Below are positions 22,524 through 39,364 of a DNA stretch of 64,000 nt, piece by piece. The stretch comes from Sulfurifustis variabilis. Lineage in GTDB: Bacteria > Pseudomonadota > Gammaproteobacteria > Acidiferrobacterales > Sulfurifustaceae. Below the pieces are notes generated by a model that worked only from the letters and a program-made list of their open reading frames with translations, was not told the origin of the DNA and did no database searches. The stretch lies in the NCBI RefSeq assembly GCF_002355415.1, contig NZ_AP014936.1, positions 1,550,001 to 1,614,000 on the forward strand. The letters are read 5' to 3'. The position numbers and the translations under genes were made by a program. Position 1 is the stretch's first letter. Each line of letters starts with the position of its first letter.

Positions 22524-24248
22524 TCAGCTCTCGTTGTTGATGCCGATGCCCTGCCGCGTTCCGAAATCGCTCGGGCAGCCGTACGCCTCCGGGGCGCTGA
22601 CGTGCACGCGGGCGTAAGGAATGGTGTACGGCTCGGGGTTCGTCCGCAGCTTGCGGTAGAACGTGTACGGTCCGCGGATGGCCTGCAGGGACACCGAGCC
22701 GTCCTCCGTCGTGCAACCCAGGCTGGTGCAGTACTGCGGCCCGTTGCCCGCGGTCGTTCCGCCGGCCGTCACGCGATAGAGGAAGCACGCGGCGTCGGAG
22801 TCCGTGCGGCAGTTCTCGGGCCCGGCCAGCCGGACGATGTCGCCCGGGGCATAGTAGGTGGAGTTGGCGCGCGTCTTGACGGCGCTCGTGACGTTGGTGC
22901 CGTCACCGTTGAAGGTCCACGCCGGCGAGTCGTAGAAGGCGTTGCGGTCGGCGCGCGTGCTGCTCGGCGGGTTCCCGGAGTTCTTGGGTCCGGAAGACAG
23001 GAGAACGTTGCACCGGACGTCGACGTCGCTGTGGTCGAGGCCGGGGAACGAACTACCGGTCGCGCTGATGAGCGTGTTGAAGTACATCTCGTAGTTGCTG
23101 GCCGGCTGATAGGTTCCCCAGGTCCAGGAGTCGAACACGATGCTGTTGACCCCGCTGTCGTATCGCTGGATCTTGTAGAAGAGGTTCCCGACGAAGGACG
23201 TTTGCCGCGCGACGTTGCTCACGCCGATCTGGTTTTCGAAGATGATGTTGTTCTTGATCAGGATGTAGTTGGCGTAGTCGTAGAGCGTGATCCCGTAGCC
23301 GCCCTCGCCGTTGCAGCAATAGTTCATGTCCGTGTAGCGCGATCCCCAGATCCGGTTGTGAATGACCTGAACCGGAGACGACGCGGTACCGTCGATCTTG
23401 ATCGACAGCGGCGACTCGGCGATGGCGCGGGCCCCGCCCTGGGTGTGCCGCGCCGGGCTCACGTAGAGATCGTTGTTCTCGACGACGATGCCGGAACGGT
23501 CCGGCTGGTTGGCGTCGGAGACGTTGTGGCCCAGCTGGATCGGGTGGGAGACCCAGTCGTAGATCTCGTTGTTGACGGCGCGCAGGTTGTTTCCGCACTG
23601 AAGGTCGACGGCGACCGACTCGTTCGGGTACCCGATCGGGTCGAGACTGCGAAAGACGCTGTTCTGCACCGTGATGTTGTTGTAGCCGCTTCCGGCGTTG
23701 CAGTTCTGCGAGTAGCCGTAGTACAGGACGCCGATCCCCGGACCGCCCTCGACGAGAAGGCGATTGAAAACCTGGTTCCCGGAATTGGAGTCGCTCTGGA
23801 TGCGCGGGCTGGGCCCGACGGACGACGCCGGGAACGTGAGGCGATGGATGACCCAGTGGCTGCCGGTCACGTTCAGTCCCTGGATCTTCGCCTTGTTGCC
23901 GTCGGACTGGCTCCAGGGCTCGTCGTTGTTGTCGTCGCCGCGGTAGTAACGCAGCACCTTGTAGTTGCTCGACGTGCCGCTGCCCTGGACCGTCAGTCTT
24001 CCCTTTCCGGTGTGGTCGCCGTTGGCGATGCAAATGGTGTTGTTCGACCAGTTTATCGAGGACCAGGCCATCGACGGCGTGATGATCTGATCGCAGGCGC
24101 GCGTACCGAGGGATTCGACGTCGACGTTGCACTGCGTGCCGCCGGCGCGGCACTCGTACAGCGCGGTGTACCCGTTACGGTCGGCGGCGTGGACGCCCAG
24201 CGGGGCCGCGAGCAGGAGGAGAGCGGGAAGGTACGGACGGAAACGCAT
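22524..24248 (-). CDS. Secreted right-handed beta-helix protein (putative polysaccharide-binding or lyase-like)
   Basis: This 574-residue protein has a clear signal peptide: MRFRPYLPALLLLAAPLGVHA, with cleavage predicted after the A-x-A-like end near residue 21. The body is a parallel beta-helix of the pectate-lyase-like type. It has repeated rungs such as HWVIHRLTF, NITVQNSVF, GIVVENNDLYV, YILIKNNIIFENQIGV and YEMYFNTLI. About twelve cysteines occur, including CCNGEGG, and may form disulfides in the periplasm or outside. It reads against the rest of the locus and has its own promoter candidate. It may bind, trim or epimerise the exported polymer, as alginate-related beta-helix proteins do. 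No catalytic set could be assigned with confidence. Confidence 0.72.
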   Translation of the reverse strand: MRFRPYLPALLLLAAPLGVHAADRNGYTALYECRAGGTQCNVDVESLGTRACDQIITPSMAWSSINWSNNTICIANGDHTGKGRLTVQGSGTSSNYKVLRYYRGDDNNDEPWSQSDGNKAKIQGLNVTGSHWVIHRLTFPASSVGPSPRIQSDSNSGNQVFNRLLVEGGPGIGVLYYGYSQNCNAGSGYNNITVQNSVFRSLDPIGYPNESVAVDLQCGNNLRAVNNEIYDWVSHPIQLGHNVSDANQPDRSGIVVENNDLYVSPARHTQGGARAIAESPLSIKIDGTASSPVQVIHNRIWGSRYTDMNYCCNGEGGYGITLYDYANYILIKNNIIFENQIGVSNVARQTSFVGNLFYKIQRYDSGVNSIVFDSWTWGTYQPASNYEMYFNTLISATGSSFPGLDHSDVDVRCNVLLSSGPKNSGNPPSSTRADRNAFYDSPAWTFNGDGTNVTSAVKTRANSTYYAPGDIVRLAGPENCRTDSDAACFLYRVTAGGTTAGNGPQYCTSLGCTTEDGSVSLQAIRGPYTFYRKLRTNPEPYTIPYARVHVSAPEAYGCPSDFGTRQGIGINNES

Positions 24249-24574: not shown

Positions 24575-26611
24575 ATGGAACGACTGCTCAGGAAGAGCGA
24601 ATTCGCGGCGCCCGAATCGAGGGCGAGCCCGCTGCAGTGGTACTGGAACCGGCTTCGTTGCATGTCGGTGCCCGAGATCGGGTATCGCCTGCGACAGAAG
24701 GTGGCCGGCCAGGCGCAGCAGATCGGCCTCGGCACTGCGAGGGGCGTCCCCCGTCCGGATCTGGCCCGGCGGGGCCGGCTCTGGATCGCGCCGAATCCGG
24801 ACGTCGACCCGGCTCCCTATCGAGCGGCGGCCGAGCGGGTGCTCTCGGGTCGCCTGCGCGTGTTCGGGATGGACATCGACCAGGGCCCGGTTCCGGAGTG
24901 GAACCGCGACCCGAAATCGGGACGCCTGGCGCCGCTGGGCTTCGGCAAACACCTGAACTACCGCGACGCAGCGCTCGTCGGCGACATCAAGTATCTCTGG
25001 GAGCCGAACCGGCACCTCCACCTGGTCACGCTCGCGCAGGCGTACCGGTTGAGCGGCGATCTCCGTTATGCGCTCGGCGTGCGCCGACTCCTCGACTCCT
25101 GGTTCGCGCAGTGTCCCTACCTGCACGGTCCCAACTGGACGAGCTCGCTCGAGCTCGGTATCCGCCTGATCAACTGGAGCCTGGTCTGGCAGCTCCTCGG
25201 CGGAGCGGATGCCTCCGTATTCGCCGACAGCGAGGGACGGCGCTTCCGGCACGCGTGGCTTTCGTCGGTGTTCCGGCACCTGCACTTCATCGCGGGTCAC
25301 TTTTCCCGCTTCTCGTCGGCCAACAATCATCTGATCGGCGAGGCGGCGGGGCTCTATATCGGCGCCACGACGTGGCCTCACTGGCATCGGACCGGCGTCT
25401 GGCGCGAGCAAGCCCGGAAGATTCTCCTGCGCGAGGCCCTGCGGCAGAACGCGCCCGACGGCGTCAACCGCGAGCAGGCGATCGCCTATCAGCAGTTCGT
25501 GCTCGATTTCCTCCTGCTCTCCGGCCGCGCCGCGCGCGCGCACGGCGAACCCTTTCCCGACGCATACTGGCGGCGCCTCGAGAGCATGCTCGGGTTCATC
25601 GCCGCCCTGCTGGACACCGGCGGTCACATGCCGATGATCGGCGACGCGGACGACGGGTTCGTCGTGGCCCTCGCTCCGGATTCCGGTTTCTGTCCCTACC
25701 GCTCGCTCCTCGCCACCGGGGCGGTGCTCTTCGGGCGTCCGGATTTCAAATGCAAGTCCCGCGCTTTCGACGACAAGAGCCGCTGGCTGCTGGGGCGGGA
25801 CGGCGAAGACGCGTACGCGCGGCTGCCGTCCGTCGCGGGCACGGCGACGCGGGCGTTTCCGGAAGGCGGCTACTGGGTGCTCGGGAAGGATCTCGACGCC
25901 GCGACGGAGATACGGCTGGTCGTCGACGCGGGGCCCCTCGGCTACGAGCGCATCGCGGCGCACGGCCATGCCGACGCGCTCGCCTTCACGCTGTCGATCG
26001 GCGGGAACGAGTTCCTGATCGACCCCGGTACCTACGCCTATCACACCGAGCGCGAATGGCGGGACTACTTCCGCGGAACGGGCGCGCACAACACCGTGCG
26101 GGTGGACGGAGCGGATCAGTCGGTCCCGGGCGGGCCGTTCATGTGGATGCGCCACGCCCGGGCCGCGTGCAGGGAGTGGCGGCCCGGCGAGTACATGGAC
26201 GTGTTCGTCGGTCGACACGACGGCTACTCGCGGCTGGAGGATCCCGTCGGGCACGAACGCAGAATCGTGCTCGACAAGGCGGAGGAGCGTATCGAGGTCA
26301 CCGACACCCTGACGTGCGCGCGAGGGCACACCGTCGAACGGTGCTGGCACTTCGCCGAGGGCGTGGCGGTCCGGGGCGGGCGCGACGGCGAGATCGAGGC
26401 GAGCTGCGGGGAGATCCGGGTGAGGTTCGTTCCGGGCGAGGCGGTCGAGCTCGCGCTTTACCGGGGATCGGAGACGCCGCGTTTCGGATGGGTATCCCGG
26501 CGTTTCGACGTGAAGATCCCGACGACGACCGCCGTCTGGCGAAGCGCGATAGCGGGCGCGACGCGGCTGACGGCACGGCTGCTCATCGAGCGGCAGGGGG
26601 TTCGACCATGA
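24575..26611 (+). CDS. Heparinase II/III family protein
   Basis: This 678-residue protein is a polysaccharide-lyase-type protein. The N-terminal half is the alpha/alpha toroid (WNRLRCMSVPEIGYRLRQ, then NWTSSLELGIRLINW and FSSANNHLIGEAAGLYIGA). The C-terminal half is the heparinase II/III beta-sandwich with HGHADALAFTLSIGGNEFLIDPGTYAYH (about residues 465-492) and FRGTGAHNTVRVDG. Family enzymes cleave uronic-acid-containing chains by beta-elimination. No signal peptide or membrane segment is visible, so either it acts inside the cell or it is exported by another route. It is followed by a 4-bp overlap with a methyltransferase, and the AlgD-like enzyme two genes on supplies a uronic acid, in line with a uronate-containing substrate. 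Confidence 0.85.
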   Translation: MERLLRKSEFAAPESRASPLQWYWNRLRCMSVPEIGYRLRQKVAGQAQQIGLGTARGVPRPDLARRGRLWIAPNPDVDPAPYRAAAERVLSGRLRVFGMDIDQGPVPEWNRDPKSGRLAPLGFGKHLNYRDAALVGDIKYLWEPNRHLHLVTLAQAYRLSGDLRYALGVRRLLDSWFAQCPYLHGPNWTSSLELGIRLINWSLVWQLLGGADASVFADSEGRRFRHAWLSSVFRHLHFIAGHFSRFSSANNHLIGEAAGLYIGATTWPHWHRTGVWREQARKILLREALRQNAPDGVNREQAIAYQQFVLDFLLLSGRAARAHGEPFPDAYWRRLESMLGFIAALLDTGGHMPMIGDADDGFVVALAPDSGFCPYRSLLATGAVLFGRPDFKCKSRAFDDKSRWLLGRDGEDAYARLPSVAGTATRAFPEGGYWVLGKDLDAATEIRLVVDAGPLGYERIAAHGHADALAFTLSIGGNEFLIDPGTYAYHTEREWRDYFRGTGAHNTVRVDGADQSVPGGPFMWMRHARAACREWRPGEYMDVFVGRHDGYSRLEDPVGHERRIVLDKAEERIEVTDTLTCARGHTVERCWHFAEGVAVRGGRDGEIEASCGEIRVRFVPGEAVELALYRGSETPRFGWVSRRFDVKIPTTTAVWRSAIAGATRLTARLLIERQGVRP

Positions 26612-27300
26612 GCGCGATCGCGCACGCGGTCAACGGCTTCCGGGCGCGGGCGCGGGCCGGACGGGCGCATGTCTTCCGCAGCCGGTTCCGGCTGGGTCCC
26701 GGTTCGAAGGTGCTCGACATCGGATCGGAAGACGGCTCCTCGATCGCCGCGGTCCTCCAGGGCGCGGGAATCGCGCCCGGAAACGTCTACATCGCCGACA
26801 TCGACGTGGAGTCGGTGGAGCGGGGCCGGCGGCTGTTCGGGTTCACGCCCGTCGTCATTCCGGAGTCCGGCCGGCTGCCGTTCGATGACGGCTTTTTCGA
26901 CGTCGTCTACTGCTCGTCCGTCATCGAGCACGTCACGCTTCCGAAGACGGCCGTCTGGACGTTGCGTTCCGGACGCGAGTTCCGGCGCATCGCGGACGAA
27001 CGCCAGGCGGAGTTCGCGAGCGAAATACGGCGGCTCGGGCGCGGCTACTTCGTGCAGACGCCAAACCGGTGGTTTCCGATAGAGAGCCACACGTGGCTTC
27101 CGTTCGTCGGCTACCTGCCGCGGCGGCTGCTGGTGCCGCTGCTCGGGGTCACCAACCGGGTCTGGGTGAAGCGGACGAGCCCCGACTGGCGCCTGCTTTC
27201 CATCGCGGAAATGCGCCGTCTGTTTCCGGAGGCGCGCATCGTGCGCGAGCGTGTATGGGGTATGACCAAATCGATCATGGCGATCAAGGGACTGACATGA
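26608..27300 (+). CDS. Class I SAM-dependent methyltransferase
   Basis: This 230-residue protein has the Rossmann SAM-binding start VLDIGSEDGSSIAAVLQGAG (about residues 33-52). The acidic ribose-binding segment is NVYIADIDVESVERGRRLF. The 'motif 4' stretch reads LPFDDGFFDVVYCSSVIEHV. It is of the Methyltransf_11/25 kind common in glycan loci, acting on a sugar or lipid-linked intermediate. It overlaps both neighbours by 4 bp (heparinase upstream, AlgD-like downstream), so the three are translated together. The exact acceptor is unknown. Confidence 0.78.
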   Translation: MSAIAHAVNGFRARARAGRAHVFRSRFRLGPGSKVLDIGSEDGSSIAAVLQGAGIAPGNVYIADIDVESVERGRRLFGFTPVVIPESGRLPFDDGFFDVVYCSSVIEHVTLPKTAVWTLRSGREFRRIADERQAEFASEIRRLGRGYFVQTPNRWFPIESHTWLPFVGYLPRRLLVPLLGVTNRVWVKRTSPDWRLLSIAEMRRLFPEARIVRERVWGMTKSIMAIKGLT

Positions 27301-28607
27301 AAATAAGCGTGTTCGGGCTGGGCTACGTGGGGGCGGTTTCCGCCGGATGCCTCGCGCGGGACGGGCATCGCGTGATCGGCGTCGATCCGGTGCCGGCGAA
27401 GGTCGCGCTGATCAACGACGGCCGCACGCCGATCATCGAGAAAGATCTCGACGTCGTGATCGAGCGCACCGTTCGTGAAGGACGGCTGACCGCGACGGGG
27501 CGGGCGGAAGAGGCGATCGGCGATTCGGAGCTGTCGCTCGTCTGCGTCGGAACACCGAGCCGCGGGAACGGCGGGCTGGATCTGAGCTATGTCCGGCGGG
27601 TGTGCGAGGAGATCGGCGTCGCGCTCAGGGAGAAGACCGAGCGCCATACCGTCGTGGTGAGGAGCACGATGCTGCCCGGGTCCATGCGGGATACGGTGAT
27701 CCCCACCCTCGAGGAACATTCCGGCAAGCGGGCCGGCGCGGATTTCGGGGTGTGCATCAATCCCGAGTTCCTGCGGGAAGGCAGCGCGGTATTCGATTTC
27801 TACCATCCCCCGAAGACGGTCATCGGGGAGATCGACCGCGCGAGCGGCGAGACGGTGGCCGCGCTGTACTCCGGGATCGAGGCGCCGCTGATTCGCACCG
27901 ACGTCGAAACCGCCGAGATGGTGAAGTACACGGACAACGCGTGGCACGCGCTCAAGGTCGGCTTCGCGAACGAGATCGGAAACATCTGCAAGGAGCTGGG
28001 GATCGACGGGCACAAGGTCATGCAGATCTTCTGCCGCGACACCAAGCTCAATCTCTCCCCGTATTACCTCAAGCCGGGATTCGCGTTCGGCGGATCGTGT
28101 CTCCCCAAGGATGTGCGGGCGCTCTGCTACAAGGCGAAGTCGCTCGACCTGGACCTGCCCATCCTGAACGCCATCCTCCCGAGCAACGAACGGCAGATCG
28201 AGCGCGGGCTGCGCATGATCATGGAGAAGGGGAGCAAGCGCGTTGGCGTGCTGGGGTTCAGCTTCAAGGCCGGCACCGACGATCTGCGCGAGAGTCCCGT
28301 CGTGGAGGTGATAGAGCGTCTGATCGGCAAGGGCTACGAGCTGCGTCTTTACGACCGCAACGTGCGGCTTGCCGGTCTCGTCGGCGCCAACCGGGATTAC
28401 ATCCTGAACCGCATTCCGCATCTCTCCCGGCTCATGGTCGGCAGCGTCGACGAGGTGGTCGATTTCGCCGACACGGTGGTCATCGGAAACGGCGAACCGG
28501 AGTTTCGCGCCGTCCCGTCGAGGATGCGCGATGGGCAGGCGCTGATCGACTTCGTGCGCATCGTCGAGGGCGCCACACGCGGGGGTTACGATGGCATCTG
28601 CTGGTAG
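27297..28607 (+). CDS. algD: GDP-mannose 6-dehydrogenase (AlgD-like)
   Basis: This 436-residue protein belongs to the UDP-glucose/GDP-mannose dehydrogenase family and has the same length as Pseudomonas AlgD. It begins MKISVFGLGYVGAVSAGCLARDGH (NAD binding). The catalytic region is LNLSPYYLKPGFAFGGSCLPKDVRAL, with the thiohemiacetal-forming cysteine near residue 268. This stretch is notably AlgD-like rather than UDP-glucose-dehydrogenase-like. The C-terminal domain begins VLGFSFKAGTDDLRESPVVEVIERL. The reaction is GDP-mannose to GDP-mannuronate with two NAD+. I infer a mannuronate or derived residue in the polymer. UDP-sugar specificity cannot be excluded from sequence alone. It overlaps both neighbours. 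Confidence 0.85.
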   Translation: MKISVFGLGYVGAVSAGCLARDGHRVIGVDPVPAKVALINDGRTPIIEKDLDVVIERTVREGRLTATGRAEEAIGDSELSLVCVGTPSRGNGGLDLSYVRRVCEEIGVALREKTERHTVVVRSTMLPGSMRDTVIPTLEEHSGKRAGADFGVCINPEFLREGSAVFDFYHPPKTVIGEIDRASGETVAALYSGIEAPLIRTDVETAEMVKYTDNAWHALKVGFANEIGNICKELGIDGHKVMQIFCRDTKLNLSPYYLKPGFAFGGSCLPKDVRALCYKAKSLDLDLPILNAILPSNERQIERGLRMIMEKGSKRVGVLGFSFKAGTDDLRESPVVEVIERLIGKGYELRLYDRNVRLAGLVGANRDYILNRIPHLSRLMVGSVDEVVDFADTVVIGNGEPEFRAVPSRMRDGQALIDFVRIVEGATRGGYDGICW

Positions 28608-29832
28608 CCCCCGTCGCGTCCTGATCATCGTCGAGAACCTGCCGGTGCCGTTCGACCGGCGCGTGTGGCAGGAGGCGACGACGCTCGTCGCCGCGGGCTA
28701 CGAGGTGTCCGTCATCTGCCCGAAGGGCAAGGGCTTCGAGCGGGCGCGGGACACGATCGACGGGGTCCATGTGTACCGCCATCCCCTTCCGTTCGAAGCC
28801 GACGGCGCGCTCGGCTACCTGCTCGAGTACGGGACGGCGCTTTTCTGGGAGCTCGTGCTGGCGTGGAAGATCTACGCGACGCGGGGCTTCGACGTCATCC
28901 ACGCCTGCAACCCGCCGGACACGATTTTCCTGATCGGTGGACTGTTCAAGCTCCTGGGCAAGCGCTTCGTGTTCGATCACCACGACATCAACCCGGAGCT
29001 GTACGAGGCCAAGTTCGGACGCCGCGACGCGTTTTATCGCCTCTTGCGGGTGCTGGAGCGATTGACGTTTCTTGCGGCGGACGTGTCGATCGCCACCAAC
29101 GAGTCCTATCGCGAGATCGCGATCGAGCGGGGACGCATGCCCCCCGATCGCGTGTTCGTCGTCCGCAGCGGCCCCGATCTGCGCCGCTTGCGGGTCCTGC
29201 CCCCGGTTCCGGCGCTCCGGCGCGGGCGCCCGTACCTCGTGGGGTACGTGGGCGTGATGGGGCGGCAGGAAGGCATCGACCTGCTGCTGCAGGCCGTTCG
29301 CCACCTGGTCCGGGATCTCGGTCGCACCGACGTGCAGTTCGCGCTGGTGGGCGGCGGCACGGAGCTCGACGCGATGAAGGCCTATGCCGGAGAGCTGGGC
29401 ATCCGGGAATTCGTGACGTTCACGGGCCGCGTGCCGGACGAGGAGCTCCTCGCGGTCCTCAACACCGCCGACGTCTGCGTCAACCCGGATATCGCGAACG
29501 AGATGAACGACAAGTCGACGATGAACAAGATCATGGAGTACATGGCGCTCGGAAAGCCCATCGTGCAGTTCGATCTCAAGGAAGGGCGGTACTCCGCGCA
29601 GGAGGCGTCGCTGTACGCAACGCGCAACGACCCGGTCGATTTCGCGCGCAAGATCGCGGAATTGCTCGACGACCCGAGTCGCCGCGCCCGCATGGGCGAG
29701 TACGGGCGCGACCGGGTGGTCCGGCGACTGGCGTGGGAGCACGAGGCCCCGGCGCTGCTCGCCGCGTACGAGGCGCTCTACGGAAAGCGGGACGTGCGCC
29801 CGGCGGCGGCGGATCTGCCGCGCCGGGACTGA
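28591..29832 (+). CDS. Family 4 glycosyltransferase (WcaI/capsule type)
   Basis: This 413-residue GT-B enzyme begins RVLIIVENLPVPFDRRVWQEATTL, the start typical of a GT4 group found beside AlgD-like and exosortase-type polysaccharide genes. Landmarks include HACNPPDTIFLIGGLFKLLG, FDHHDINPELYEAKFG, GYVGVMGRQEGIDLLLQAV and DKSTMNKIMEYMALGKPIVQFDL. The E-x7-E place carries NKIMEYMALG. The gene overlaps the algD-like stop by 17 bp and is the last gene of this plus-strand run. The next two genes read the other way. Confidence 0.83.
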   Translation: MASAGSPRRVLIIVENLPVPFDRRVWQEATTLVAAGYEVSVICPKGKGFERARDTIDGVHVYRHPLPFEADGALGYLLEYGTALFWELVLAWKIYATRGFDVIHACNPPDTIFLIGGLFKLLGKRFVFDHHDINPELYEAKFGRRDAFYRLLRVLERLTFLAADVSIATNESYREIAIERGRMPPDRVFVVRSGPDLRRLRVLPPVPALRRGRPYLVGYVGVMGRQEGIDLLLQAVRHLVRDLGRTDVQFALVGGGTELDAMKAYAGELGIREFVTFTGRVPDEELLAVLNTADVCVNPDIANEMNDKSTMNKIMEYMALGKPIVQFDLKEGRYSAQEASLYATRNDPVDFARKIAELLDDPSRRARMGEYGRDRVVRRLAWEHEAPALLAAYEALYGKRDVRPAAADLPRRD

Positions 29833-30154: not shown

Positions 30155-30574
30155 TCAGATCGTGGCGCAGGCGGGTTGTGACCAGTCGGACATCACCCCC
30201 TCGCTGTTGTAGGCGCGCAGCCGGAAGCAGGCCTGGCTTCCGGGATCGAGCCCGAGATCGTTGCCGGCGTTGTACGAGACGGACGGCGCCTGCGAGTTGA
30301 GCGCGCGGTTGGCGACGGCAAGATCGGAGAGCTGCGCGGTGGCGCCCTCGGGTGTCGTTCCGAAGTAGACGCGGTAACCCGCTACGGGATCCGAATTCGG
30401 CTGCCACGTGAGTTGAAGCACCACGTCGGTGGCGCTGCCGGGCGCCGGCGGCGTGTACACCTGGGACGGGGACCCGGGCTGGTCGCCCGTCGGCGCCGAA
30501 GAGTCCTGTCCGGAACCGCCGCTGCAGGCGGTCATCGAGGCGACGAGCAGCGGTACCCAGAAGATGTGTCGCAT
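30155..30574 (-). CDS. Lipoprotein with a fibronectin type III domain
   Basis: This is a 139-residue protein. The ATG at 30574 is chosen because it gives a lipoprotein signal, MRHIFWVPLLVASMTACSGG, with the lipidated cysteine at residue 17. Upstream in-frame ATGs would bury this signal. After a Ser/Gly/Pro linker, residues about 45-135 form a fibronectin-III-like domain: VVLQLTWQPNSDPVAGYRVYFGTTPEGA, then ACFRLRAYNSEGVMSDWSQPAC. The cysteines near its ends could form a disulfide. FnIII domains in bacterial lipoproteins commonly hold carbohydrate or other surface partners, in keeping with a place between two polysaccharide loci. No enzymatic motif is present. Confidence 0.7.
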   Translation of the reverse strand: MRHIFWVPLLVASMTACSGGSGQDSSAPTGDQPGSPSQVYTPPAPGSATDVVLQLTWQPNSDPVAGYRVYFGTTPEGATAQLSDLAVANRALNSQAPSVSYNAGNDLGLDPGSQACFRLRAYNSEGVMSDWSQPACATI

Positions 30575-31097
30575 GAAAAATCTCCGAAGAATAAAGCACG
30601 GTGTTGAGCGGTGCGTACTGCCGGGGCGCGAGAGAACGCGGGCGCAAAGTGGCCGGGTGGGAGGGCGCGCGAGGAAGAGCGGGATGGAACGAAGACGAGT
30701 CGTCCTGCGGATCGGGGCGAGCCCGGAAAGAGCGGGGTGTGGCATGCCTCGTCGTTCTTGGTGTTGGCGAGTTCCTGTCGGCCTCGCGCTGTAGTGTTTC
30801 CAATCTCCCTGCGGGGCTTCGGCGGTTCGCGACCGGATCGACCCGCACGCATTATTTTCATTCGCGGCGCGGTATTTCCACGCTTTCAGGATGGGAGTCG
30901 GCGCGCCGCGGACGAGCGGAGCGGCGCGTCGAGCAGCGACCGATGAATGGCGCTGCTCGAGACGTGACGCGCAGCGAATGCGCCGTCATTTTCCGCGCGA
31001 GCCTCACGTATTTGCGTCAGGGAAGCTGTGCTATCGTGGTTTGCCTCGCGTAACAGGGAAGACGCGTCGCCCGAATGCGGCGCCGCCGAAAACAACG
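30575..31097. other. Intergenic region between the divergent lipoprotein and second polysaccharide locus
   Basis: These 523 bp contain only frames without codon bias or recognisable domains. They probably hold promoters for the divergent lipoprotein gene and for the second locus. A TATCGT box at 31032-31037 lies about 60 bp before the next start, but the best upstream box, TTGCGT, is only 14 bp away, so I do not call it a promoter. I searched by eye for a sigma54 GG-N10-GC site and saw none that convinced me. Confidence 0.4.
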
Positions 31098-33017
31098 ATG
31101 GGACGCAACGCCAAGCACGACGCCGACCGGGTCTCGATCGAGGAGCTCGCCGCGACGCTCGAATCGAAGATCGGGGCCGACGTGCACGAGCGGGCGGATG
31201 ACGAGGACCTGGCGCTCGAAGAGCGCGCCTCACCGGCGGCCGCGCGCCAGGCGGCCGCACCGCCGCCTCCCCCGATCCTCGTCGCCCACGCCGATCCGGG
31301 CGTGCGCGGCGCCGTACGTGCGGCGCTCGAGCGGCACTTTCAGGTTCTCGAGGCGGACGACGGCGAGGACGCCTGGGAAACGCTCGCGTCGCACCGTGAC
31401 ATCAGGCTGCTGCTCACCGGTACGGGTCTTCCTCGGCTCGAGGGCATCGAGCTGATCCGGCGTTTGCGGCGTCCGAACGGTCCCTCGCACCTCGTCGGTC
31501 TGCCGGTGATGCTGTACGCGGAGCGCGAGGACGCCAACGTCAAGCAGACGGCGTTGCTCGCGGGCGCCAACGACTACCTGACCCAGGACATCGAACCGGC
31601 GACGCTGCTCACGCGCGTCCAGGCGCGAAACCGTCTCTTCGAGCAGAGCCGGCGGGCGATGAATCTCACCGGAACCATGCCGACCGCCCGCGCGGGTCGC
31701 CCGGAAGCGTCGAACGGTGCCTCGGCGAGGTCGAGCGCGTCCCCGGCGCCCCCGCGTCCGCAGCGGCAGGAAACGCCGGCGCGCAGGCCCGGTGAGCGAC
31801 CCATCTGGGTGGAGGCGCGAGGCGGCGGCAGGCCTGCGGTCGCCGGGCCTCGCGGATGGGCCGAGCGTCTGTACCGGATCAGCTCGACGACGACGATCAC
31901 GCTCACGGCGACCGTGCTCGTCATTCTTGCCATCACGTTGATCCTGCTCCTCAACCAGACGCCGCAGCGGCCCAAGTCGCTGGCCGTCGGGCGGCTGGAT
32001 ACCGCGCCGCCGGCGGAGCGCACGAGCGAGCCGAGAACCGCCCTGTCCGAATCGGTCGATCGCGCGGAATCGCCGCCGACCCCGACATCGGCGAACGTGA
32101 ACACGACGGCGCCCGAACCGGTGCCGGACGATCCGCCGGCGACCGCGCCACCCGTGGCGTCCGGTCCGCCCCCGGCGATTTCGAAACCCGGCGGCGGCCG
32201 CAAGGAGGCGGCGGTGGCCGGCTCGCGAACGGAGTCCGGTCGCCCGAACGAGGAGCGGCGCCCCCCGGTGACGGAAGCGCCGGCTCCATCCAAGCCATCG
32301 TCGGCCGACGTCGCGAGCCGTCCTCGCAACCCGGTCGAGTCGGCGTCGCCGGCCGCCGCAGGGACGGCAGGCAGGGAAGAGCCACCGAAGCCGTCCGCGC
32401 GCGCTTCGCCGGCGCCCAAGACCGACGAGCCGGAACCGGTGACGCGCGACGCTCAGCCGGCCCCGACGGCGGAGACCAGGCCGTCCCCGCCCCGTGCAGC
32501 GACCCCGCCGCCGGCGGCAAAACCGGAGTCATCGTCGGCCGCCGAGGTTCCCGCGATGTCCGATCGGCCCGCCAACACGTCCGTGGCGGCGGCGGCGACG
32601 CCGGCTCCGCCCAGCCCGCCGCCGCGGCCGGCGTCCGCCCGGTTATCGCGCGAGGAGCTCACGACGTTGCTGCAGCGTTTCGTCTCCGTCTACGAGGCCG
32701 GCGACATCGAGCAGTTCATGGCGCTGCTTGCGGACAACGTGCAGACCAACGATCGCATCACGCGCCAGGCGGTCCGAGAGGATTATGACCGGCTTTTCCG
32801 CACGACCGATCTGCGTCAGATGCGAGTGGACAGCATGAACTGGGACGTCGAGGGCGAACAGGCACACGGCTGGGGCGAGTTCGAGGTGGAGGTGCGGCGG
32901 CAGGGTGATGCTTCCGTCTATCACTACGAAGGCAGTCTCACGTTGCTCGTTCGCAAGGCCGACGGCCGGCCGCGGATCGAGCGCCTCTACCACAGCGAAC
33001 GTCGAGCGAGCCGTTAG
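31098..33017 (+). CDS. Membrane protein: degenerate receiver domain, transmembrane helix, Pro-rich linker, NTF2-like domain
   Basis: This 639-residue protein has an unusual domain order. Residues about 58-182 look like a response-regulator receiver. The acidic pocket is lost: ILVAHADPGVR where ILVVDDDP is usual, the phosphate-accepting Asp replaced in LLLTGTGLPRLEG, and the Lys replaced in YLTQDIEP. It is therefore unlikely to be phosphorylated. One membrane helix follows (about 264-287, TITLTATVLVILAITLILLL). Next come about 220 residues rich in Pro, Ala, Glu and Thr. Residues about 515-635 are a NTF2/SnoaL-like domain (VYEAGDIEQFMALLADNV). With the receiver inside and the NTF2-like domain outside, it could pass information across the membrane. 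It leads the second polysaccharide locus. Confidence 0.65.
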   Translation: MGRNAKHDADRVSIEELAATLESKIGADVHERADDEDLALEERASPAAARQAAAPPPPPILVAHADPGVRGAVRAALERHFQVLEADDGEDAWETLASHRDIRLLLTGTGLPRLEGIELIRRLRRPNGPSHLVGLPVMLYAEREDANVKQTALLAGANDYLTQDIEPATLLTRVQARNRLFEQSRRAMNLTGTMPTARAGRPEASNGASARSSASPAPPRPQRQETPARRPGERPIWVEARGGGRPAVAGPRGWAERLYRISSTTTITLTATVLVILAITLILLLNQTPQRPKSLAVGRLDTAPPAERTSEPRTALSESVDRAESPPTPTSANVNTTAPEPVPDDPPATAPPVASGPPPAISKPGGGRKEAAVAGSRTESGRPNEERRPPVTEAPAPSKPSSADVASRPRNPVESASPAAAGTAGREEPPKPSARASPAPKTDEPEPVTRDAQPAPTAETRPSPPRAATPPPAAKPESSSAAEVPAMSDRPANTSVAAAATPAPPSPPPRPASARLSREELTTLLQRFVSVYEAGDIEQFMALLADNVQTNDRITRQAVREDYDRLFRTTDLRQMRVDSMNWDVEGEQAHGWGEFEVEVRRQGDASVYHYEGSLTLLVRKADGRPRIERLYHSERRASR

Positions 33018-33044: not shown

Positions 33045-33389
33045 ATGAACAATAAGATGCGTGAGCGGATACTGTGCGCACTCCTGATCTTGCCCGTCTC
33101 CGGGACCTCGTTCGCCGGCGATCTGTACGCGCAGGCGATCGGCGAGCCGCCCCCGGCCCCGGCACCTCCGCCCAAGGCACCGCCGCCGAAACCGGCGCCG
33201 CCCGCGGCCGAGCCGAGTCCACCCCCGACCGCGACGCCCGCCGAGCCGCCCCCCAGCGAGGTTGCCGAGGCGGAGCAGCCGGAGGGCGCCACCCGCCGCA
33301 ACGTGCTCATCGGCATCGGCGTTGCCGCCGCCCTGGCCGCGTTGGCGGGCGGCGGCGGGAATGGCGGGGGATCGACCACACAACACTGA
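33045..33389 (+). CDS. GfcA/YjbE-like small exported protein
   Basis: This 114-residue protein has a signal peptide (MNNKMRERILCALLILPVSGTSFA, cleaved near residue 24). A Pro/Ala-rich middle follows, then a hydrophobic segment RNVLIGIGVAAALAALAG, and a tail GGGGNGGGSTTQH. The order signal, low-complexity stretch, hydrophobic helix, Gly/Thr/Ser end is the layout of YjbE and GfcA, small proteins of unknown action in the E. coli yjbEFGH and group 4 capsule gfc operons. It lies 28 bp after the receiver-like gene and 75 bp before the YjbH gene, so the context agrees. The match is in layout, not in a long sequence identity. Confidence 0.6.
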   Translation: MNNKMRERILCALLILPVSGTSFAGDLYAQAIGEPPPAPAPPPKAPPPKPAPPAAEPSPPPTATPAEPPPSEVAEAEQPEGATRRNVLIGIGVAAALAALAGGGGNGGGSTTQH

Positions 33390-33464: not shown

Positions 33465-35600
33465 ATGGCGCACGCGCATCGCGTGTGCCGCTCGCCCGAC
33501 CCCCTTGTCGTGGCTGCGCTGTTTCCCCTGGCAGCGGGAATGATCGGATGGCCCGAGGGCGCGCTCGGCGAGGCGAGCCTGAGCGGCCAGACCGGGTTCG
33601 TCCACATGCCGAGCGCGCGCATCCAGCCGGAAGGGACATGGAGCATCGGCTCGAGCAACGCCGAGCCTTACTTCGCCGGCTGGAGCAGCGTGTCGCTGTT
33701 CCCCCGTTTCGAGTTCTCGGCTCGCTATACGCGGATCGACAACCTCTCGCCCGGTTTCGAGGACCAGGCCTACGGCGACTACAAGGACAAGGCGTTCGAC
33801 GCGAAGATCGTCCTCGCGCCGGAATCGACCTTCCTGCCGCAGATCGCGGTCGGCGCGCAGGACTTCACCGGCACGCGCCTGTTCGCCGCGCGCTACCTCG
33901 CGATCAGCAAGCGCGCGGGGCGCTTCGACTGGGGCTTGGGGTACGGCGAGGAGCGCATCGACGGCTGGTTCGGCGGCGTGCGCTATCGGCCGCCCGGGTT
34001 GCGGCGGCTCGGGCTGGTGTTCGAGTACGACGCCACGCGCTACGCCGAGGATTACCAGGCGTCGACATCGGGAGCGCTCGATCGGGAAGGGGGAGCGACG
34101 TACGGGATCGAGTACCGAAGCGGCTGGTTCGGCGGGCAGGTGTCCTATCAGTCCGGGGAAGTCGGCGCCAATCTCTACGTCACCGTGCCGCTGAACCGAC
34201 GCGAGTTCATTCCGAAAATCGACGAGCCTCCCCCCTTCGCGCGCGCGGCTCCCGCCGGTCCGCCGCTCGAGCAGTGGTTGCAGGACCCCGGGGCGCAGCA
34301 CGGCCTCCGTCGCGCGCTCGAAGCGGAGGGCTTCCGCGCGGTCGAGCTCTCCGCAGGCGATCGCTCGCTCGAGGTCAGGCTCTCGCATCCGCGCATCTCG
34401 GTCATCGGTCGCGCGGTCGGCCGGGCCGCGCGCGTGCTGCTCGCGCTCGGGCCGAGCGACCTGCAAAGCCTGCGCATCGTCTACACGCTCAACGACCTGC
34501 CCGTGCTGACCTACGTCTTCGACGACCTCGCGCACCTCGATCGGTTTCTCGCGGGCGGGACCGACGCCCCGTCGATGGAGGACACCGTACGGATCGCCTT
34601 CGCGTCGCCCGAAGCGGCCACGGACTTCAGGGGCCTGGCCGACCTGATACCGCCCCGGGGAGAGGGCGGAGGCCTCGAGGCGCGCTACGGCGAGGACGGA
34701 CATGCGCTCCTGCTGCGCAGCGAGAACCCGAGCGGTTCGCATTTCACGGTGGTCCCGTTCAACGTCCGGTTCTTTTTCAACGATCCGAGCGGCGCCTTTC
34801 ACTACGACAGCTACGCGGGACTCGATTACGCGCGACGCCTGCACCGCGGCTGGTTTCTGCTCGGCGGCGCGCGCCTGACGCTGTTCGAAGACGTGAGCGA
34901 CGTCACGCAGCCTTCCGACAGTCTCCTGCCCCACGTGCGCAGCGACATCGCGGAGTACCTGGGCGAAGGCGGGCCGGTGCGGCTGGATCGGCTCCTCCTC
35001 AATCGATATCACTATCCGGCGGAACAGCTCTACGCGCGCTGGTCGGCAGGCTACTACGAGGAGATGTACGGCGGACTCGGCGTTCAGTTCCTCTACCTGC
35101 CGACCGACTCGGCCTGGGCGGCCGATCTGGCGGTCGATGCGCTGCGGCAGCGGGCGCCGGGAGAGGTGTTCGCGTTCCGCGACTACTCCACCGTCACGGC
35201 GCTCGCCTCTCTGCATTACCGGGTTCCGCGCTACGGCGTCACCGCGACGACGCGCCTCGGTCGCTTCCTCGCCCGGGACGACGGGGTGCGCCTCGAGCTC
35301 AAGCGACGCTTTCGTTCCGGAGTCGAGATGGGCGGATGGTATTCCTGGACGGATGCGGAGGACATTACCGGCCCGGGACAACCGGGGGACCCGTTCCGCG
35401 ACAAAGGGCTTTTTCTCTCCATACCGCTACGGTCGATGCTCACCCGCGATACGCGCGAGCGTGCGAACTTCAGCCTCGTTGATTTCACGCGCGACGTCGC
35501 GCAGATGGTGCAGTCGCCCGGCGATCTTTATCGTCAGTTCGAGCTCGCGCGCCACTTCGACGACGGTGAGCACAACCCTTTCATGGATTTCCGCAAGTAG
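33465..35600 (+). CDS. yjbH: YjbH/GfcD-family outer-membrane exopolysaccharide protein
   Basis: This 711-residue protein has a signal-like N-terminus (LVVAALFPLAAGMIG). The family start follows: SLSGQTGFVHMPSARIQPEGTWSIGSS, equal to the 'G-GLL-MPTAR--EGE' opening of YjbH. The long body alternates short hydrophobic strands and polar turns, as expected for a beta-barrel (for example FEFSARYTRID, ANLYVTVPLNRREFIPK, SAGYYEEMYGGLGVQFLYLPTD). A soluble insert lies about residues 265-400. YjbH/GfcD takes part in release of exopolysaccharide or group 4 capsule through the outer membrane. The start codon has only a weak ribosome site. Length is close to the family's usual 700. Confidence 0.85.
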   Translation: MAHAHRVCRSPDPLVVAALFPLAAGMIGWPEGALGEASLSGQTGFVHMPSARIQPEGTWSIGSSNAEPYFAGWSSVSLFPRFEFSARYTRIDNLSPGFEDQAYGDYKDKAFDAKIVLAPESTFLPQIAVGAQDFTGTRLFAARYLAISKRAGRFDWGLGYGEERIDGWFGGVRYRPPGLRRLGLVFEYDATRYAEDYQASTSGALDREGGATYGIEYRSGWFGGQVSYQSGEVGANLYVTVPLNRREFIPKIDEPPPFARAAPAGPPLEQWLQDPGAQHGLRRALEAEGFRAVELSAGDRSLEVRLSHPRISVIGRAVGRAARVLLALGPSDLQSLRIVYTLNDLPVLTYVFDDLAHLDRFLAGGTDAPSMEDTVRIAFASPEAATDFRGLADLIPPRGEGGGLEARYGEDGHALLLRSENPSGSHFTVVPFNVRFFFNDPSGAFHYDSYAGLDYARRLHRGWFLLGGARLTLFEDVSDVTQPSDSLLPHVRSDIAEYLGEGGPVRLDRLLLNRYHYPAEQLYARWSAGYYEEMYGGLGVQFLYLPTDSAWAADLAVDALRQRAPGEVFAFRDYSTVTALASLHYRVPRYGVTATTRLGRFLARDDGVRLELKRRFRSGVEMGGWYSWTDAEDITGPGQPGDPFRDKGLFLSIPLRSMLTRDTRERANFSLVDFTRDVAQMVQSPGDLYRQFELARHFDDGEHNPFMDFRK

Positions 35601-38431: not shown

Positions 38432-39364
38432 ATGAGCGTCGTCATTCAGCGATCGAGGTCCGGAGCCGCCGACGAACCCGGGTACGATCGTCCGCCCTAC
38501 CTGCGCGATTACTGGCGGGTCGTGTCCGCGGAACGACGCGCCGCGGTGGCGCTCCTTGCGCTTTGCACGCTTGTCGCGACCGCCGTGGCATTCCTGTGGC
38601 CGCCCACGTACGAGGCGGAGGTGCTGCTCGCGCCCGTGCCCCAGTCCCGGGATCAGTCGCTGGGTCTCGGCGGGCAGTTCGCCGATATCGCCACGATGAT
38701 CGGACTGACGCTCGGCCCGAGAAAGGACCGGACCGCCGAGCACCTGGCGGCCCTGCGATCGCGGTCGCTCGCGATGGGCTTCGTGCAGAAGGAGAGCCTG
38801 AGACCGGTGCTGTTCGCGGAGCGATGGGATGCCGGATCCGGCCAATGGAAGGGAGGAGCGCCGACCGACTGGGAGGCTTACGAAAGGTTCGACGAGGACG
38901 TGCGGTCCGTGAGCATGGACTGGAAGAGCGGGCTGATCACGTTACGGATCGAGTGGAGCGACCCGGAGACCGCCGCGCGCTGGGCGAACGCCCTGGTTCA
39001 ATTCGCGAACGAGCGCCTTCGAGCGGATGCGATCGAAGATGCCACGCGTCGGATCGCTTACCTGCAGAAGGAGGTCGCCCGAACCGGAGCGATGGAGGTC
39101 CGCCAGGCGATATTTCGTCTCATCGAGGCCGAAACCAAACGCCGAATGATGGCCGCGACGAACGTGGAATACGCGTTCGAGGTCATCGACCCGGCGGTCA
39201 CGCCCGAAGAGCGCGCCTGGCCGAAACGGGTATTGATGATCGCCACCGGTTTTCTTGTCGGCGTCATGCTGTCCGTGACAGTCGCGTTCGTGCGCCGCGC
39301 GTGGTCCGGCCCATGCCCGACGGGGACCGATCCCGCGACCCCGTGGGTCACCGGCAGGACATGA
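38432..39364 (+). CDS. wzz: Wzz-type polysaccharide co-polymerase (chain-length determinant)
   Basis: This 310-residue inner-membrane protein has two membrane helices that enclose a periplasmic domain. The first is near residues 38-57 (ALLALCTLVATAVAFLWPPTYEAEVLLAP), which carries the usual proline just past the helix. The second is near 265-288 (KRVLMIATGFLVGVMLSVTVAF), after the family motif VIDPAVTPEERAWPKR. It lacks the tyrosine-kinase domain of Wzc. It sets polymer length and probably links the polymerase to the SLBB channel. The next gene starts as ATGA across its stop. Confidence 0.83.
   Translation: MSVVIQRSRSGAADEPGYDRPPYLRDYWRVVSAERRAAVALLALCTLVATAVAFLWPPTYEAEVLLAPVPQSRDQSLGLGGQFADIATMIGLTLGPRKDRTAEHLAALRSRSLAMGFVQKESLRPVLFAERWDAGSGQWKGGAPTDWEAYERFDEDVRSVSMDWKSGLITLRIEWSDPETAARWANALVQFANERLRADAIEDATRRIAYLQKEVARTGAMEVRQAIFRLIEAETKRRMMAATNVEYAFEVIDPAVTPEERAWPKRVLMIATGFLVGVMLSVTVAFVRRAWSGPCPTGTDPATPWVTGRT

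Follow-up and report, generated by a model that had tools for sequence, protein, structure and literature searches.

The window analysed here is a stretch of 64,000 nucleotides from Sulfurifustis variabilis (contig NZ_AP014936.1, positions 1,550,001 to 1,614,000). ORF 31098–33017, the subject of this study, is followed on the same strand by genes for a small Gly-rich protein, a YjbH protein, an SLBB protein and a Wzz protein, with gaps of 27, 75, 82 and 10 bases (Table 1), a spacing from which we infer a single transcript. The small protein resembles the one in the same place at a related locus (L033), and no kinase domain was seen in the Wzz/GNVR protein. The Pfam matches of the YjbH, SLBB/Poly_export and Wzz/GNVR genes bear out the view of the initial annotation that the ORF leads a polysaccharide export locus. 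Upstream lie a glycosyltransferase, whose matches to PEP-CTERM/XrtA-type glycosyltransferases fall below cut-off, a nucleotide-sugar dehydrogenase and a divergent small gene whose relatives adjoin, by phmmer, the G008 orthologue of the ORF (see below) and the J-type family members L049 and L052. The same sugar cluster contains a Heparinase II/III-like gene with an additional alginate lyase-like match (24575–26611), and beside the cluster an exported-looking protein of 574 residues (22524–24248, minus strand) has no Pfam or NCBIfam match over cut-off.

Table 1. Features of ORF 31098–33017 and its neighbours, in positions of the window.
Feature	Position	Strand	Evidence or remarks
Nucleotide-sugar dehydrogenase common to the G008 locus	27297–28607	+	TIGR03026 above cut-off (409 bits); L031 by phmmer, E 1.6e-235
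Glycosyltransferase common to the G008 locus	28591–29832	+	L031 by phmmer, E 2.6e-204
Divergent small lipoprotein-like gene (label by reading)	30155–30745	-	phmmer matches; no NCBIfam match
Receiver–membrane helix–Pro/Ala linker–NTF2-like gene	31098–33017	+	639 aa, then stop; translation, Pfam, profiles
N-terminal segment, residues 8–28	31119–31181	+	homologous to post-lid stretch of the ATPase of the G008 orthologue
Pseudo-receiver, residues 58–177	31269–31628	+	Pfam; profile without window copies; row of catalytic positions
Membrane helix, residues 267–285	31896–31952	+	hydropathy; aligns with helix of the G008 orthologue
Pro/Ala-rich linker, 229 aa, putatively periplasmic	31953–32639	+	composition
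NTF2-like domain, residues 515–639	32640–33014	+	profiles, predicted model, fold matches, PDB sequences
Small exported-looking protein, Gly-rich C-terminal hydrophobic tail	33045–33389	+	phmmer E 6.8e-8 to L033; no Pfam match
YjbH family protein (PF06082)	33465–35600	+	445 bits
Poly_export/SLBB (OPX-type) protein, 912 aa	35683–38421	+	Pfam; EpsE-like NCBIfam match below cut-off
Wzz/GNVR chain-length protein	38432–39364	+	GNVR above cut-off (39.9 bits); Wzz slightly under its own cut-off (24.5)

The domain order first proposed for the ORF, a receiver followed by a membrane helix, a Pro/Ala-rich linker and an NTF2-like end, is recovered by Pfam, profiles, hydropathy and a predicted model. PF00072 (Response_reg) matches residues 60–175 with 53 bits (E 4.4e-14; cut-off 30.2), and a genome scan finds the same receiver in the same place with 56.9 bits. 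A local profile made from 30 receivers of the fetched loci, with all copies of the window sequence excluded, reaches 85.5 bits for residues 58–177. In an alignment of 57 receivers, the five catalytic positions are occupied by H64, A65, G108, A141 and Q163 (HAGAQ), so that the acidic pair, the phospho-Asp, the Thr/Ser and the Lys are all replaced, while each of the other 56 receivers misses at most two of the five. As judged from this alignment, the domain is a pseudo-receiver lacking every residue for the usual phosphorylation, in agreement with the altered hallmarks noticed initially. The fold-shaping residues P112 (D+4) and G116 (D+8) are retained in the alignments; such residues are tied to the β3–α3 turn and the start of α3 in PMC12632262. 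A one-sequence AlphaFold prediction was uninformative (pLDDT 56.8), and the receiver fold is therefore assigned from sequence evidence alone. The GC content at third codon positions is 0.856 in the receiver and 0.808 to 0.877 in the rest of the ORF.

No ATPase family was found in the ORF by Pfam or among the best 25 of 58 NCBIfam rows, nor a peptidoglycan-binding domain by Pfam, and the family ATPase profile detected no AAA core with a Walker A motif in any of the 550 window ORFs. With two hybrid-kinase ORFs as queries, the sole match among these 550 was the receiver itself, and of the genome's 54 HATPase matches, the 41 listed all fall outside the window, consistent with the earlier remark that no sensor kinase is attached.

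The NTF2-like end by itself gives weak SnoaL-type Pfam matches below cut-off. A family profile of 41 rows matches the sequences of solved ketosteroid isomerases over part of its length (E 6.9e-5); the N-terminal parts of PBP2a and PBP5 are matched as well. The AlphaFold model of the domain, based on a four-row alignment, has a mean pLDDT of 94.7, and its helices are predicted to pack on a curved β-sheet in the cone-like fold of the NTF2-like superfamily. NTF2-like and ketosteroid isomerase chains head the Foldseek and VIA-align lists (Z up to 18.0), and dehydratases are also among the fold neighbours. Y18, R59, W68 and G98 are invariant in the 41-row alignment. NTF2 folds can be non-catalytic, and many NTF2 relatives are dimers. 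With an NTF2 profile match at its C-terminus, behind a helix and a linker, the protein falls into a group that we refer to as the TM-NTF2 family.

The ORF has a single membrane helix (hydropathy 2.83), and its linker is 23% Pro and 19% Ala. Among the family helices with hydropathy above 1.6, the N-terminal side is the more positive in 35 of 42 and tied in 5; the helix of the ORF is one of the two with the opposite bias (net charges of 1 and 2 on the N and C sides, respectively). The cytoplasmic placement of the N-terminus is drawn from the relatives and from the usual location of ATPase, J and receiver domains. The protein probably spans the inner membrane once, with its NTF2 end most likely in the periplasm. 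Among the relatives, two NTF2 proteins that stand alone (L047:9062–9625 and L055:9228–9794, 188 and 189 residues) appear on reading to start with a secretion signal.

Outside its own genome, the ORF is matched best by a protein of G008, a genome of the same family and another genus, with E 1.4e-40 over residues 178–637. By phmmer, the G008 gene has the nucleotide-sugar dehydrogenase, the glycosyltransferase and the small divergent gene as neighbours, as in the window. Its product matches TIGR03015 at positions 192–266 only (E 8.3e-7), which is the lid of the ATPase, and tblastn and profile searches of the window and G008 found no ATPase core or hidden upstream ATPase beyond this lid. Residues 1–57 of the ORF align with the G008 post-lid stretch with a score of 71, compared to a mean of 28 and a maximum of 47 for shuffled sequences (0 of 1000 reach 71), and the two helices align with a score of 74 (shuffle maximum 47, 0 of 1000). 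No counterpart of the receiver was found in G008, the alignment score being equalled or exceeded in 972 of 1000 shuffles. On the common neighbours and the alignable N-terminal segment and helix, we regard the two genes as orthologous. The lid relic, the missing core and the aligned flanks together imply that the ATPase core was lost, and that the receiver was either gained in the lineage of the window or lost in G008. If gained, the point of entry may lie between the post-lid stretch and the helix.

The NTF2-end profile matches in 26 of 369 genomes in a sample of the class to which the window belongs, in 4 of 57 of its order and in 10 of 75 around genome G156, as well as in 22 of 24 genomes in the order of G355 and all three in the order of G092. 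A sample of the phylum yielded matches in 7 of 398 genomes, strong only in G000 and G420; the other five have E-values of 5e-5 to 7e-4, and two of these are outside the class. We fetched 40 stretches (all listed class-sample matches save one) and three order relatives. A separate scan of contigs gave three loci, whose contigs equal those of L034, L033 and L045 by length. The layout counts exclude L042, which shares its contig with L045, loci that were fetched again as short stretches, the unfetched match G137:C15, and the loci from around G156 and from the orders of G355 and G092, which were not classified one by one. In the G355 order (L046, L051 and genomes G425–G445), several genomes contain tandem NTF2 pairs, and G355 and G433 have ten matches each.

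Across the 46 sequences classified (45 frames and the ORF), the NTF2 end is constant and the part before it varies. The layouts are J (13), AAA (12), AAA-J (4), AAA-J with two NTF2 domains (2), J-receiver (2), J-J (1), receiver (1, the window), NTF2 alone (8) and two NTF2 domains (3). An AAA module is thus present in 18, a J module in 22 and a receiver in 3, with AAA and J combined in 6 and J and receiver in 2. The seeds of the J and AAA profiles were 10 and 6 members of the family, respectively, and these match by construction. Pfam DnaJ independently exceeds its cut-off in 13 of 20 proteins scanned. The receiver labels come from a profile holding three window copies; the window and L047 (73.7 bits) were confirmed separately by Pfam. 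No module was recognised in 11 sequences; these include at least two frames that reach the end of their contig and are possibly incomplete (L059 and L067), and a TPR protein (L034). Of the 18 AAA members, 17 have a Walker A motif and only G008 lacks it; the HPD motif occurs in 3 of 23 J rows. The L033 ATPase scores 258 bits against TIGR03015, below the cut-off of 324.5. The J-like domain of L044, L047, L049, L057, L069 and others carries its own conserved N-terminal extension of ∼80 residues, and the domain in most cases has no HPD. The dead receiver was seen in the ORF only, that is, in one genome. The receiver is not a constant or defining part of the family, as the initial annotation would have had it, since relatives bear an AAA ATPase or a J-like domain in its place.

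The repeated linkage to export genes that had been anticipated was observed in two forms. First, the order NTF2-family gene, small protein, YjbH, SLBB is found at L033, L046, L051, L057, L069 and in the window, and is completed by Wzz in L046, L057, L069 and the window, where the fetched stretch is long enough. The inner ends at these loci are an ATPase (L033), an ATPase with J (L046 and L051), J (L057 and L069) and the receiver (window). A genome-wide search of 30 genomes (the 26 class matches plus G008, G025, G038 and G012, the last without the NTF2 family) found YjbH in seven, and in six of these it is separated from the upstream NTF2-family gene by one small gene. In the seventh, G340, the only match is partial (53 bits) and lies on a different contig. 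G131 contains, in addition, a second YjbH at another place in its genome. The other 23 genomes searched yielded no YjbH, among them G008 although it keeps its NTF2-family gene, so the partner is not always YjbH. Second, SLBB and Wzc-like genes precede the NTF2-family gene in 6 of 43 loci, five of which also have a Wzy_C-type gene after it; Pfam was applied to the L047 genes and the other loci were joined by BLAST clusters.

In a further 9 of the 43 loci (L053, L054, L062, L064, L065, L067, L073, L074 and L076; ATPase type in 7 of 9), the gene precedes a protein of 200–253 residues and a giant protein, a set not polysaccharide-like in appearance. The giant protein has 766–1395 residues and reads as a lipoprotein in L064 and L065; a scan of the L065 protein gave an Ig-like match. 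No common cluster was recognised in the remaining loci of the 43. Small exported-looking proteins adjoin the NTF2-family gene in two of the cluster types (33045–33389 of the window, L033:3917–4600, L050:9373–10095 and L069:8236–8964); they have no Pfam match and, where read to the end, a Gly-rich hydrophobic tail.

The proteins of the family would be built from a module in the cytoplasm, a single membrane helix, a tether that is long and flexible and passes through the periplasm, and a folded periplasmic NTF2-like domain. It is because this plan resembles that of ExeA that we take the ORF for a scaffold of the cell envelope for polymer export, which has lost its motor and whose pseudo-receiver would dock partners at the inner face, as in FrzS, a reading to which we give about an even chance. 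The protein most likely serves the YjbH/SLBB/Wzz polysaccharide exporter. Its NTF2 end, probably dimeric, would reach and organise the periplasmic and outer-membrane export parts, and its cytoplasmic end would keep these in register with the synthesis machinery of the inner membrane; export would presumably need it. With the ATPase apparently lost in the lineage of the window, the inner face would bear the pseudo-receiver, which could not be switched by the usual phosphorylation and is most likely a protein docking surface. Several observations weigh against this scaffold reading: the charge bias of the helix of the ORF, the occurrence of the dead receiver in a single genome next to two relatives with intact receivers, the genomes searched that have no YjbH, and the loci where the NTF2 module precedes genes of another appearance than polysaccharide genes. 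A scaffold coupling polymer synthesis to the channel, as the initial annotation envisaged, is plausible: the dead receiver, the probable periplasmic location of the NTF2 end and the export linkage speak for it, whereas the supposition that the receiver defines the system, with a conserved loss of the Asp, did not hold.

The main rival to the scaffold, which we consider unlikely, holds that the helix, linker and NTF2 end suffice for function, and that the dead receiver, the G008 lid and the HPD-less J domains are decaying leftovers at the N-terminus. The 11 sequences without a recognised module, including the two possibly truncated frames and the TPR protein, would fit such decay, as would the two small secreted-looking NTF2 proteins, the absence of HPD from 20 of the 23 J rows and the retention of only a lid in G008. 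However, the receiver is full length, without a stop or frame break, and scores well on the profile free of window copies; it keeps the proline and glycine at D+4 and D+8, and its third-position GC matches the rest of the gene. Moreover, decay does not produce a receiver, and G008 has none there.

The relationships of the receiver bear on another alternative, that the pseudo-receiver answers some other signal (a phosphorylated receiver, the c-di-GMP machinery or a protein state) and gates export via the helix. In the tree of 57 rows, it falls inside a group of 33 (100/97) with the receivers of L047, L055 and others; of eight rows of this group inspected, four have a GGDEF motif, three a degenerate GGDEF-like sequence by reading and one neither. 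Cross-talk with GGDEF machinery is thus imaginable, and PleD combines a receiver with a pseudo-receiver (PMC12632262). The rows were selected by likeness to the receiver of the ORF, and therefore the grouping is loose and the tree informs only on broad type. No kinase was detected in the window by the queries used, none of the listed kinase-type domains is located there, and we regard such a sensor as improbable. Within the group, the receiver of the ORF lies outside the other 32 rows, L047 and L055 included, at 94/77, which is below the mark for good support of the tree program. A common origin with the L047 and L055 receivers was considered separately: the tree gives it no support, and a clade of these and the ORF alone is not rejected (p-AU 0.31). 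L047 and L055 are the only other receiver-bearing relatives found, and both have the complete set of five catalytic residues. The idea that the receiver is dead throughout the family is thereby rejected, and with it the expectation that the Asp is consistently lost. Of the accompanying possibility, homologues with a phospho-Asp and a partner kinase, the half that concerns the Asp applies. No partner kinase was seen next to these two genes: among the matches listed, the L047 contig has one kinase-type ATPase domain, 42 kb away, and the L055 contig none.

That the NTF2 pocket modifies or binds the sugar polymer, with the rest as an anchor, is the least probable reading, and a very doubtful one: the ketosteroid isomerase and dehydratase neighbours and the four invariant residues favour it, but these residues are few, non-catalytic NTF2 folds and the PBP2a and PBP5 matches weaken the argument, and the domain also adjoins genes that are not polysaccharide-like.

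Beyond the scaffold itself, we tentatively suggest, as a possibility that falls short of even, a family of envelope adaptors in which one helix–NTF2 chassis accepts interchangeable AAA, J-like or receiver modules, and in which the motor was lost and a pseudo-receiver inserted at an orthologous polysaccharide locus. Strong matches to this family are so far confined to the class of the window. If the suggestion is correct, the inner module of the TM-NTF2 family would be a docking face and not an enzyme. The natural series from an ATPase through an ATPase with an HPD-less J domain, an HPD-less J domain and a lid relic to a dead receiver could probe the need for an energy-using module.

We know of no comparable head gene in the E. 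coli gfcABCD/yjbEFGH operons and, to our knowledge, no inner-membrane coupling part is known for YjbH/GfcD-type export. A head gene that closely precedes YjbH in several families, and whose product has a tethered outer domain, offers a concrete candidate for such a part. Our full-text literature search, whose coverage left out most subscription papers, did not find the family or its layout described; PMC6329079 and PMC3791409 appeared unrelated. The parts are known, and their combination and the exchange of modules appear new as far as this search goes.

Relatives of the ORF carry an ATPase like that of TIGR03015 (XrtA/PEP-CTERM ATPase), followed by a helix and the same NTF2 end, and we take TIGR03015 and ExeA to belong to one ATPase family. 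L038, from the genome of the window, encodes a TIGR03015-type ATPase followed by what reads as a peptidoglycan-binding region. Also in this genome, a receiver-like ORF of 111 residues (L035:1067–1399, minus strand; weak CheB-type match, E 1.1e-4) overlaps a stand-alone XrtA-type ATPase, a second pairing of ATPase and receiver, which adjoins chain-length and kinase-like genes. In ExeA, an ATPase in the cytoplasm is joined by one membrane domain to a peptidoglycan-binding domain in the periplasm, and the protein is required for secretin assembly (PMC4098917); the single-pass layout of ExeA/GspA, with a cytoplasmic module and a periplasmic domain, would also be that of the TM-NTF2 family. Unlike ExeA/GspA, the ORF has no ATPase, ends in an NTF2-like and not a peptidoglycan-binding domain, and neighbours YjbH and SLBB genes and not a secretin. 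In the E. coli gfcABCD/yjbEFGH systems for group 4 capsule-type export, the YjbH/GfcD gene adjoins an OPX/SLBB gene, as here (PMC9603273). The J and J-receiver NTF2 proteins (L047, L055, L057 and L069) share the helix, linker and NTF2 end of the ORF and its location at export clusters, whereas their inner end is J-like, or J with a receiver that has all five catalytic residues. Among pseudo-receivers, whose ways of working in bacteria are termed a mystery, that of FrzS binds SgmX and offers a precedent for docking, and those of FrzS and PleD are, like that of the ORF, receivers recognised by PF00072 without catalytic residues (PMC12632262). The ORF differs from both in the loss of all five residues, in its membrane helix and NTF2 end, and in having no DNA-binding or cyclase domain, which makes it an unusual setting for a pseudo-receiver.
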